From Candidatus Hinthialibacter antarcticus (lineage in GTDB: Bacteria > Hinthialibacterota > Hinthialibacteria > Hinthialibacterales > Hinthialibacteraceae), in NCBI GenBank assembly GCA_030765645.1, contig JAVCCE010000060.1, forward strand, positions 1 through 50,231: a stretch of 50,231 nt of DNA, written 5' to 3'. The notes below the pieces were generated by a model. The model saw only the letters and a list, made by a program, of their open reading frames with translations. It did no database searches and was not told the DNA's origin. This document shows, piece by piece, positions 14,830 to 42,613 of the stretch (the first letter of the stretch is position 1; every line of letters begins with the position of its first letter). The position numbers and the translations under genes were made by a program.

Positions 14830-15462
14830 TCAATTTTGTCCGCTCCATCGGATAATCTCGCCGGAACTACGCAGTCCATTGCTGGGGTCATAAACCTCCG
14901 CTACCAGCAGCACGGCTGGAGTCTTGATATTGCAAACAGCGCATAGTTCCGTACCCTCGGTTTCATCTTGGGGGAAGTAGGCGAAGTATTGCAACAAGCC
15001 GTCAGGGCCGCTGGATGACGCCATCCATTTATGAAAGCCATAGTCATACTGCCCGCCCGGGCCAGAGCGGTCAGCGCGAAAATACCCATACGCATACGCG
15101 CCGTTGACCACGTCTTTGAAATCAATCGACTGGTCGAGTTCGCGGGCGCTGTGGTGTGGGAACGGGTCGCGAGGGATGTTAGTTAAGTAGGCTAATGGCG
15201 TGGTCAGGGATTTGAACAGGGCTTCAAAGTTATAAATTTGCTCTCCGGCTTGAATGTGCGACGGAGGCGCGGTGTTGCAATCCAAGCGATACATTTCAAT
15301 AGAAGTTGAGAGCGATTTGTGGTCAGCCTGGACGCGGGCGACGTTAGCGCGCACTTGCGCTTGCAGGAAATTGGGGACAGCGATTGCCGCGAGAATGCCA
15401 ATGATGGCGACAACGATCAGCAATTCAATCAGTGTAAAGCCGTTTTGATTTATTCGTTTCAT
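14830..15462 (-). CDS. Orphan type IV/II pseudopilin (prepilin N-terminal signal)
   Basis: 210 residues starting MKRINQNG-FTLIELL, with the prepilin peptidase cleavage site after Gly and Glu at +5, followed by the hydrophobic helix VVAIIGILAAIAVPNFL. The soluble part resembles GspG-type pseudopilins (SIEMYRLDCN, TPLAYLTNIPRDPF) but is longer, with two cysteines near the C-terminus. GGAG sits 7 bases upstream, directly beside a strong hairpin. No secretion or pilus assembly gene is near. It is one of three related pseudopilin genes in the window, each standing alone. Confidence 0.9.
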   Translation of the reverse strand: MKRINQNGFTLIELLIVVAIIGILAAIAVPNFLQAQVRANVARVQADHKSLSTSIEMYRLDCNTAPPSHIQAGEQIYNFEALFKSLTTPLAYLTNIPRDPFPHHSARELDQSIDFKDVVNGAYAYGYFRADRSGPGGQYDYGFHKWMASSSGPDGLLQYFAYFPQDETEGTELCAVCNIKTPAVLLVAEVYDPSNGLRSSGEIIRWSGQN

Positions 15463-25819: not shown

Positions 25820-26404
25820 TTAGTTCACTAACACGCCGTTGTTTGAGGTATAGATATCGCCGAGCGAGGTGAGTCCATTACTGGCTTTGTATAAGCGGGG
25901 GAAGACTTCGTTGTGCGGCTGCGACCAAGCGGCCTGGTCAACTAAATCCGGCCCGACGCTGGTCATGGTATATATGGTGTTGCTGGGTTTCCAGGCAGGA
26001 CGGGGAATTAGTTCGCCGCCCAATGGCCCGGCGTATTGAAAGAGTGGATACGGCTTATTGGTCGCCTGTTGAAACTGGCTTTTGCCCTGCGGCCCCAAAT
26101 AAAAGGCGTCGAATGGAACCGAACTCATATACGCGACCGGCGTCGTGAGTTGTGAGTAAGACAGAAATTCATGACCGGGGCTGCTGACGCCTGGAACCTG
26201 TCCGCTGTCATAATCGGGCGGGTAGTAATTATTGTCGAGAAAATACATCTCCATTGATGTGTGAAGCGCTTTCATATCGGAGACGGTGCGCGAGACTTTG
26301 GCGCGCATCTGTGCGTTGAGAAAGTTAGGTACGGCAATCGCCGCCAGGATGCCAATGATGGCGACGACGATTAATAATTCAATGAGCGTAAATGCGCGTT
26401 TCAT
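25820..26404 (-). CDS. Orphan pseudopilin (prepilin N-terminal signal)
   Basis: 194 residues from ATG 26404 (MKRA-FTLIELL), the only start giving a prepilin leader; the longer open frame to 26674 would run upstream through the promoter of the divergent gene. AAGG lies 8 bases upstream. The hydrophobic helix VVAIIGILAAIAVPNFL is nearly identical to that of the pseudopilins at 14830 and 42041. The soluble part has MEMYFLDNNYYPPD and TPVAYMSSVPFDAF as in GspG-like proteins, then diverges. Stands alone without assembly genes. Confidence 0.9.
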   Translation of the reverse strand: MKRAFTLIELLIVVAIIGILAAIAVPNFLNAQMRAKVSRTVSDMKALHTSMEMYFLDNNYYPPDYDSGQVPGVSSPGHEFLSYSQLTTPVAYMSSVPFDAFYLGPQGKSQFQQATNKPYPLFQYAGPLGGELIPRPAWKPSNTIYTMTSVGPDLVDQAAWSQPHNEVFPRLYKASNGLTSLGDIYTSNNGVLVN

Positions 26405-26504: not shown

Positions 26505-26966
26505 ATGCGTAGTTTTTTTGTATTTATGGGTTGTATTCTGACCGGGATATTGATCGTCTGGTTTTTGATGACGTTTGTCTTGCTCACCGAAGAAGAGCGC
26601 ATCTTGCGCGTGATTGAAAAAGGCCGCCGCTGCGTCGAGAACGGCTCGGTCATTTCATTGAGTAATATCCTCACTTCAGATTATGCGCACGAAGGCGGCA
26701 TTGACCGCCGTACTGCGTTGGGCGCCATGCGCCAGCTCTTTCAAGACACCAACAACCGTCGAATCCAACTGGTCGATCGAGAGGTTCGCATTGACGGTGA
26801 GCGCGCCAGCGCGTGGGTGGAATTTACCGTGATTGCAGACAAGATTGGCAACCGACCGCGCGACCCGTCCGGCTTGTTTTCGGGCGATGACGTACGGACG
26901 ATTGAGATAGAACTGCGAAAAGAAAAGGGACGCTGGCGGGTGTCCAGCAGCCGCGTTCCGAGATAG
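26505..26966 (+). CDS. Membrane-anchored small protein, possibly NTF2-like
   Basis: 153 residues: one N-terminal membrane helix (FFVFMGCILTGILIVWFLMTFVLL) then a soluble domain starting EEERILRVIEKGRRCVE. The sequence of a long helix, ILTSDYAHEGG, and alternating strands (IQLVDREVRIDGERASAWVEFTV, IELRKEKGRWRVSSSRV) fits a cystatin/NTF2-like cone fold facing the periplasm. The final KEKGRWRV strand is a common ending of such domains. Function unknown. 13 bases before the FlgG-like gene, so probably co-transcribed. Confidence 0.75.
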   Translation: MRSFFVFMGCILTGILIVWFLMTFVLLTEEERILRVIEKGRRCVENGSVISLSNILTSDYAHEGGIDRRTALGAMRQLFQDTNNRRIQLVDREVRIDGERASAWVEFTVIADKIGNRPRDPSGLFSGDDVRTIEIELRKEKGRWRVSSSRVPR

Positions 26967-26979
26967 AAAGAAATAAAAA

Positions 26980-27579
26980 ATGAAGCAGCGTATCTATCCA
27001 ATTGTATTGTCATTTTTTGCGGGGTTGATTTTGGGCGTTGTTTTTATGGTGCAGGTTCCCGCGATGCTAGCTGCGCAGCGGGGCGAAGAATTCTTGCCGA
27101 ATGATATGACGCCGACGGCTTATGAAAAAAGTCCGCGTTCTCTCGATGTCGCTATTTTAGGGCGGGGATATTTTCAGTTTGATGGGCGGGACGGTTCGAC
27201 GTTATATAGCCGTGAGTCTAGTTTATATATTGATGCAGAAAATACTATCGTTGGAAAAGATGGTTTGTCTCTAAGTCCTGCGGTCCGCGTTCCAGAAAAT
27301 GCAGACCGAATCAATATTTCTGAAGAAGGCATCGTATCCGCTTGGTTACCTGATGAAAAGAAAATCCAACAAATCGGACAAATTGAATTAGCCCTTTTCC
27401 CAAATTCGGATGATCTCGCTCCGTCATTGCAAGAAGGGTATTTTGAAGAAAGCATAGCCGCAGGGCCTCCAAAATCTTGCATACCAGGGCAGGGCGGTAC
27501 GGGGGCCTTATTACAGGGTTATACGCTTTTACCTTTTATCCCGGTGAATCACCCAAAGCATCTCATGACCAAACCATGA
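26980..27579 (+). CDS. Membrane-anchored orphan FlgG-like (flagellar rod/hook core domain) protein
   Basis: 199 residues. An N-terminal membrane helix (about residues 5-30) replaces the usual rod-protein coiled coil. Residues about 52-180 follow the FlgG/FlgF core closely: SLDVAILGRGYFQF, TLYSRESSLYID, VRVPENADRINISEEGIVSA, IGQIELALFPNSDDL, and PGQGGTGALLQGY. The C-terminal polymerisation helix (SNVxxxEEM type) is missing, and the last 20 residues are unrelated. No other flagellar gene is in the window. It may be an exported scaffold or a repurposed fragment; a frameshift at the 3' end is possible but not shown. Flanked by two other small membrane proteins. Confidence 0.72.
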   Translation: MKQRIYPIVLSFFAGLILGVVFMVQVPAMLAAQRGEEFLPNDMTPTAYEKSPRSLDVAILGRGYFQFDGRDGSTLYSRESSLYIDAENTIVGKDGLSLSPAVRVPENADRINISEEGIVSAWLPDEKKIQQIGQIELALFPNSDDLAPSLQEGYFEESIAAGPPKSCIPGQGGTGALLQGYTLLPFIPVNHPKHLMTKP

Positions 27580-27669
27580 AAGAATTTGTGCGCCGCAGCG
27601 TAAAGTATAACAACAGGCGGTTTTGTGAATCGCCCAAACCTGCGCCTTGTGCTAGGATAATCCAAGACT

Positions 27670-28128
27670 ATGACGACCTGGATCGAAACCAATATGGGCC
27701 CTGCTGAATTTGTCGTGGAATTTATCCGCGCGTATGCGACGTTTTTGACCGCCATCGCCTGGCCGTTGGTGATTGTCGTGATCTTTATCACGGTGATGGT
27801 CTATGTAGAACGCACCTTCGGCGTGTTGTTTCGCAAACGGCGCATGGCGCTCAACTGGCGCGCCTATGAGTCAGTCATCGACCAGTTAGAGGCTGGGTAT
27901 GCTGACAGCCTGGGGCGACTAAAAAACAATCATTCCCGTAAACAACTCGTCCAACAACAGATTGTCCGCGCCCGCGAGTCGATTCAACAGCGCGATTCCA
28001 AACGGGCGTTGCGGTCGCTGGCCGCGCTCTCGGCGTTGGGCGTCCAGACTGACAAGCAGGTGGCGCAATTACAGGTGGGCGATTGCGCCGATGCGGCGGA
28101 ATTATTGCCGCCGGGGAATAGTGAATGA
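27670..28128 (+). CDS. Membrane protein with C-terminal helical/coiled-coil region
   Basis: 152 residues: one long membrane helix (FLTAIAWPLVIVVIFITVMVYV) near residues 24-46, followed by a charged helical region (VIDQLEAGYADSLGRLK, RKQLVQQQIVRARESIQQ) likely to form a coiled coil. No family recognised. Probably the third gene of the 26505-28128 group, though a 90-base gap precedes it. Its 3' end abuts the remnants of hicA on the other strand. Confidence 0.7.
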   Translation: MTTWIETNMGPAEFVVEFIRAYATFLTAIAWPLVIVVIFITVMVYVERTFGVLFRKRRMALNWRAYESVIDQLEAGYADSLGRLKNNHSRKQLVQQQIVRARESIQQRDSKRALRSLAALSALGVQTDKQVAQLQVGDCADAAELLPPGNSE

Positions 28129-42040: not shown

Positions 42041-42613
42041 TTACGGCCCATAGCGAACAATGTTGCCGTCGCTCAGAAGGCCGTTGGTTGCGTCATAACT
42101 GATATATTGGCCTGCAAGTGGATGGCCTTGTGGATAGACGAGATTGCCGATCCATTTCTTCGTCGGACCGAAACCGCGAAATTGATATTCATATTTGTTT
42201 GCGGGGAACGCGGTTTTTTGCGCCCAATAGCTGCCGCCCCGGTCATTGCCGTTGGCCCAATAGCGCGTCCAGTAATCATAGTTGCCTTGCGTATTGCTGC
42301 CGTCTTTGGGGCCGTCACTGGTGTCGGTCGGACGTTCATTAAAGGGATCAAGCGGGATGCTGGACATATAAGAGATAGGCGTCGTCAGCGGGATATAGCG
42401 TTCGTGCATGAGTCCGCCGCGCACCGGATAAAAATTCTGGTCCATCATATACATTCGCACGGCAGTGTCGATTGTGCGGATATCGCTTTCAACGCGGGCA
42501 ACTTTTGCGCGGATTTGCGCGTTCAAGAAATTCGGAACGGCGATCGCGGCGAGAATTCCAATAATGGCAACGACGATGAGTAACTCAATTAAGGTGAATG
42601 CCTTGGTCCTCAT
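42041..42613 (-). CDS. Orphan pseudopilin (prepilin N-terminal signal)
   Basis: 190 residues, MRTKA-FTLIELL leader, with AGGA 7 bases upstream. The helix VVAIIGILAAIAVPNFLNAQ and the following ARVESDIRTIDTAVRMYMMD and TPISYMSSIPLDPF resemble the copies at 14830 and 25820, after which the sequence is variable (Gly/Trp/Tyr-rich, NYDYWTRYWANGND). The C-terminal GLLSDGNIVRYGP ending suggests the exposed tip. Single gene with its own terminator; no secretion machinery nearby. Confidence 0.9.
   Translation of the reverse strand: MRTKAFTLIELLIVVAIIGILAAIAVPNFLNAQIRAKVARVESDIRTIDTAVRMYMMDQNFYPVRGGLMHERYIPLTTPISYMSSIPLDPFNERPTDTSDGPKDGSNTQGNYDYWTRYWANGNDRGGSYWAQKTAFPANKYEYQFRGFGPTKKWIGNLVYPQGHPLAGQYISYDATNGLLSDGNIVRYGP

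Follow-up and report, generated by a model that had tools for sequence, protein, structure and literature searches.

As described so far, FlgE, FlgF and FlgG are components of the flagellar axis that travel through the flagellar export channel, and the known contacts of the D1 domain all lie within the basal body. The D1 domains of the three proteins make up the PF22692 superfamily, and FlgG itself is covered by the NCBIfam model TIGR02488 and by the structures 6JF2, 7CBM and 8WKI. In the Salmonella rod, the D1 surface bears acidic patches, whose FlgG residues D109 and D154 have been described as facing lysines of FlgI that are needed for P-ring formation (PMC8298488). Inner-membrane-anchored proteins of another kind, such as PflB, PflD, FcpN and FcpO of Campylobacter, form a periplasmic scaffold of complex flagellar motors (PMC11870540).

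Here, we describe a gene of Candidatus Hinthialibacter antarcticus that combines a FlgG D1 domain with a membrane anchor. It lies in a contig of 50,231 nucleotides (JAVCCE010000060.1, assembly GCA_030765645.1), which was analyzed as a whole and is called the window below. The relevant features of the window are as follows.

26505..26966, + strand: upstream neighbor, not part of the system; single-pass, with weak NTF2/SnoaL-like similarity.
26980..27579, + strand: gene for the membrane-anchored FlgG-D1 protein (open reading frame); a single-D1, shortened family member.
27001..27057, + strand: membrane helix, residues 8-26, from hydropathy and flank charges; AlphaFold2 helix 5-36.
27022..27036, + strand: GxxxG motif (G15, G19) inside the membrane helix, from the alignment of family members.
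27118..27525, + strand: FlgG D1 beta domain, residues 47-182, from TIGR02488 and PF22692; pLDDT mostly >90; Foldseek match 6JF2.
27526..27576, + strand: remnant of an interdomain linker, then stop, with the second D1-like domain (D1b) missing; alignment with the relative in genome G005, TLLPFIPVNHPKHLM versus QLLSSIPPNTPSHLI.
27670..28128, + strand: downstream neighbor, not part of the system; single-pass, of no known family.

The window gene starts with ATG and encodes a product of 199 aa, in which a first-pass annotation had recognized a FlgG core with a membrane helix in place of the N-terminal polymerization helix. Both claims held. Residues 58-121 matched PF22692 with 62.3 bits (E 4.9e-17), well above the gathering cut-off of 27 bits; residues 47-181 matched positions 83-216 of the 259 in TIGR02488 (E 2.9e-29), and in the PDB, solved FlgG chains gave the highest-ranking sequence matches (E 1.5e-20). 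The TIGR02488 score of 102.4 bits missed the equivalog cut-off of 252.75 bits. Identity in D1 ranged from 33 to 45% across FlgG proteins and was 43-44% to the host's own FlgG, with which the run NISEEGIVSA is common. As for the N terminus, a helix at residues 8-26 with a mean hydropathy of 2.55 and flank charges of +3 (N side) and -1 (C side), indicating an N-in orientation, stands where FlgG carries its D0 helix and the Dc region with the L-stretch. The C-terminal D0 helix (SNVnvveElvnlI...) is absent from the window protein, the profile match stopping at FlgG position 216 of 259.

The AlphaFold2 model (pLDDT 89) consists of a long N-terminal helix (residues 5-36) and a beta domain, followed by a C-terminal tail of 18 residues with lower confidence. 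Foldseek matched it best to chains of the FlgG rod and to 6JF2, the crystal structure of FlgG D1, with an rmsd of about 1.3 angstrom and TM-scores by target of 0.86-0.91, so that the predicted fold is that of FlgG D1; since FlgG rows were among the 33 rows of the input alignment, this match confirms the homology and is not independent of it. Overall, the product of the window gene is a single, complete FlgG D1 domain carried by an N-terminal membrane helix, and the rod-building D0 and Dc parts are missing. This product is membrane-anchored, whereas FlgE, FlgF and FlgG are axial and exported through the flagellum, and, unlike flgG, the gene lies outside the flagellar operon and has relatives with two tandem D1 domains.

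These relatives emerged when the window's own genome (G000) was searched with the window protein, which returned FlgG and two further reading frames that match from the membrane helix onward.

Contig C8, L007 8119-9450 and 9447-10748: P1 and P2, tandem overlapping genes of 443 and 433 aa.

The P1/P2 pair is flanked by a Gfo/Idh-type gene and a nadA-like gene. A syntenic tandem pair, likewise of overlapping genes (448 and 476 aa), with a matching neighborhood occurs in a second genus (G004), and this nadA neighborhood was found in G000 and G004 only, not in the four other genomes of the taxonomic family. The closest relative of the window protein is encoded by a single gene (337 aa) in a third genus (G005), is 47% identical over window-protein residues 4-196 and lies not at the window's locus but beside a large hydrolase-like gene. 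The protein type is thus conserved elsewhere, with six members in three genomes, the window protein being one of them.

All six members share the N-terminal hydrophobic helix, a basic N flank, small-xxx-small spacing and a first D1 domain (D1a). G15 in the helix is invariant (6/6), and the full GxxxG is present in four. Moreover, the post-helix motif and the linker of the window protein recur in the five other proteins, at other loci. D1b is found in five of the six and is missing from the window protein. In the G005 protein, residues 35-179 align with host FlgG residues 73-219 (E 1.5e-31) and residues 218-336 with residues 93-229 (E 2.5e-10), and Pfam likewise reports two D1 stretches in the two-domain relative. 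The architecture of the family is a membrane helix followed by D1a and D1b, distinct from flgG.

In a tree of D1 segments, the D1a halves formed one clade (100/96) and the D1b halves another (100/99), with the window D1a sister to that of G005 (97/88); the D1b halves and P2 sat on long branches. D1a stood apart from host FlgG, and both sets of halves lay outside the FlgF branch, leaving FlgF unsupported as the source of the family. Descent from the FlgG lineage of the host itself was neither established nor rejected (p-AU 0.35 for the tree that keeps the two together): the extra residue of host FlgG (GKRGFF) is missing from the family, while NISEEGIVSA occurs in both host FlgG and the window copy. 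Divergence gathers at third codon positions (0.66-0.70, versus 0.34-0.45 at first and second positions), indicating that the proteins have been under selection over their history.

A profile search of up to 386 mostly unrelated genomes gave helix-covering matches only in G000, G004 and G005; matches in G011 and G013 that resembled short members turned out to be frames of the FlgF/FlgG type. GTDB species contigs were also scanned, with one exact peptide pattern that could miss distant members; the best 80 loci comprised G004 once more and, apart from it, axial proteins of the flagellum. FlgG was present and a family member absent in G001, G002 and the families f2 and f4; G003 has FlhA, FlgE and flagellins, and FlgG was not found in its assembly. 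No earlier description of membrane-anchored FlgG-D1 proteins was found in open-access full text. The tandem-D1 membrane-anchored family is apparently small and undescribed, with three related uncultured bacteria as its carriers so far.

The window gene had been described as lying outside any flagellar context. This is true of the window, where no flagellar genes were seen among the larger open reading frames, but not of the genome (5.15 Mb, 96% complete), which carries flgF-flgG-flgA-flgH-flgI-flgJ, including a true flgG, on contig C19, fliK-flgD-flgE-motA with two motB-like genes on C7, flhF-flhA-flhB-fliR on C15, and seven flagellin-N matches. These names come from reading the translations and from FlhA and flagellin profile matches. 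FlhA and flagellin were present in all 14 phylum genomes examined.

In genomes of families f1 and f2, FlgE frames are unusually long (about 1000 aa), and several flagellin frames per genome reach about 800-960 aa; in G000 these long frames lie on C7 (L008 9447-12491), C19, C57, C66, C73 and C37, with counterparts in relatives, and they suggest thick or decorated hooks and filaments. The one-residue insertion in the strongly conserved AIxGxGFF motif of FlgG (AIAGKRGFF) is a trait of f1 and f2, seen in the flgG of L002/L006 and in the FlgG of G001, G002, G004, G005, G006 and G008; neither the membrane-anchored proteins nor f4 FlgG have it. An orphan full-length FlgG-like gene lies away from the flagellar operon in G005 (C130, L043 6767-7522), and orphan FlgG-like genes stand beside a histidine kinase gene in G006 and G008 (L192, L190 1279-1995) and in G007 (L191 1195-1911); the orphan proteins have 239-252 aa and D0 helices and form their own clade. 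Finally, the two motB-like genes at L008 13963-15619 are adjacent and share about 40 identical N-terminal residues (MAGRKPEEKKGGAPEWMCTFSDMMSLLLCFFVLLFSLST).

The two genes that border the window gene do encode single-pass membrane proteins, as first annotated; each has a single hydrophobic segment, at the N terminus, and neither could be assigned to a family with confidence. The upstream one ends 13 nt before the window gene and is possibly co-transcribed with it here. It is present in 13 of 14 phylum genomes, most of them without the FlgG-like gene, and the downstream one is present in all six genomes of the taxonomic family. G004 has them side by side, separated by 138 nt and by no FlgG-like gene, and the G005 relative lies elsewhere. 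The proposal of a trio conserved in order (26505-28128) fails on this empty site and on the distribution of the neighbors. Elsewhere in the window, three pseudopilin-like genes lie within 28 kb (14830-15462, 25820-26404 and 42041-42613, all on the - strand); the N termini of their products are nearly identical (FTLIELLIVVAIIGILAAIAVPNFL) and the bodies differ.

An uncleaved N-terminal helix with a positive N flank leads to N-in insertion by the general secretion route. Judged by its sequence, the helix of the family would be such an uncleaved signal-anchor, and N-in insertion would place D1 in the periplasm, with the conserved GxxxG-like motif possibly pairing helices. The family would have arisen from a duplicated FlgG with both ends replaced. 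Without D0 and Dc the protein would not polymerize into an axial tube and could offer a copy of the rod surface held in place in the periplasm, acting as a non-polymerizing binding module. In the reading that we favor, to which we give a probability of roughly 0.4, this FlgG paralogue has exchanged flagellar type III export for a membrane anchor and serves as a periplasmic accessory of the basal body, where it would meet the rod's usual partners: the P-ring protein FlgI, neighboring rod D1 domains or the rod cap FlgJ. An inner-membrane anchor with a periplasmic domain in flagellated bacteria is also what the Campylobacter scaffold proteins present, although the analogy is functional only and the Campylobacter cage was borrowed from another machine, being built of type IV pilus-like components and not of rod D1.

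When counted along the alignment with FlgG from the PDB, Salmonella D109 and D154 correspond to D71 and E116 of the window protein. Acidic residues at these positions hint at a possible FlgI-facing surface; the rod-facing acidic residues are kept unevenly across the family and not in all members. A further step, which we consider distinctly unlikely, would be that in this lineage the duplicated tandem FlgG domains, anchored in the inner membrane, surround or guide the basal body as a stationary periplasmic collar, rotor-type domains thus being re-used as stationary parts.

The main competitor of the accessory role is a purely non-flagellar envelope job for the rod beta domain, such as surface sensing, adhesion or the scaffolding of another complex, which we regard as doubtful. 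It would agree with the absence of flagellar genes, including flgF and flgA/flgH/flgI, beside any family member, which counts against an accessory, and with the rapid change seen in the D1b halves and in P2. It would also agree with the promoters: all 10 testable phylum genomes have a sigma-54-like -24/-12 site in front of flgF, against a chance rate of about 3/167 blocks, and none was found upstream of the family genes. However, the flagellin genes of G000 are likewise without such a site, and its absence is thus compatible with a flagellar role. Sigma-28-like sites were set aside as evidence, being too frequent by chance (48/125 blocks). The partly kept rod-facing acidic positions speak against a non-flagellar job, as does the presence of flagella in all three carrier genomes, although every phylum genome is flagellated and this co-occurrence therefore does not discriminate between the two roles. 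Most of these flagellated genomes are without the family, which must therefore be dispensable for the flagellum. The basal-body accessory remains slightly preferred in view of the contacts known for D1, all of them with parts of the basal body, and of the flagella of every carrier.

The non-conserved site and atypical codon use of the window copy count against an accessory role as well, and raise the alternative that a two-domain gene, inserted between two conserved genes to which it is unrelated, is in decay here and that the window copy is what is left of it, no longer functional. The tail had been called unrelated to FlgG. The C-terminal polymerization helix is indeed gone; the tail itself is what remains of the linker to the second D1, since the last residues of the protein (TLLPFIPVNHPKHLM-TKP*) can be aligned to the beginning of the G005 linker, after which comes the stop. 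The 90 nt that separate it from the next gene showed no trace of D1b in any reading frame. Because G005 and both P-type pairs keep D1b, a loss in the window is the more economical assumption, and it is well supported that the window copy lost D1b and kept only the linker start. The copy may accordingly be a reduced or decaying version of the family. Its GC3 of 0.405 is the lowest of 30 window genes and its codon fit the worst, a pattern that would fit a recently arrived gene, a weakly expressed one or one under relaxed selection, and its site is empty in G004 and not common with G005. Nevertheless, the frame is open, the helix is present and D1 is complete with its core residues kept; divergence from the G005 gene is biased to third positions (0.41/0.37/0.66), and the intact G005 gene has a similar GC3 (0.435), so that a low value need not mean decay; the G004 pair is typical (0.61-0.63). 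Taken together, we consider decay rather unlikely. A simple truncated flgG duplicate with a chance hydrophobic start is highly improbable: the genome does hold a flagellar set, the copy is truncated and its D1 resembles host FlgG as given above, but the truncation is relative to the two-domain family, whose helix, post-helix motif and linker recur at other loci and whose D1a domains form one clade apart from host FlgG.

If the basal-body reading or its non-flagellar competitor is true, the FlgG D1 domain can leave the axial machine and serve as a fixed periplasmic module. The family, known from the genes of three uncultured genomes alone, would then offer a testable case of rotor parts turning into accessory or unrelated parts of the envelope.
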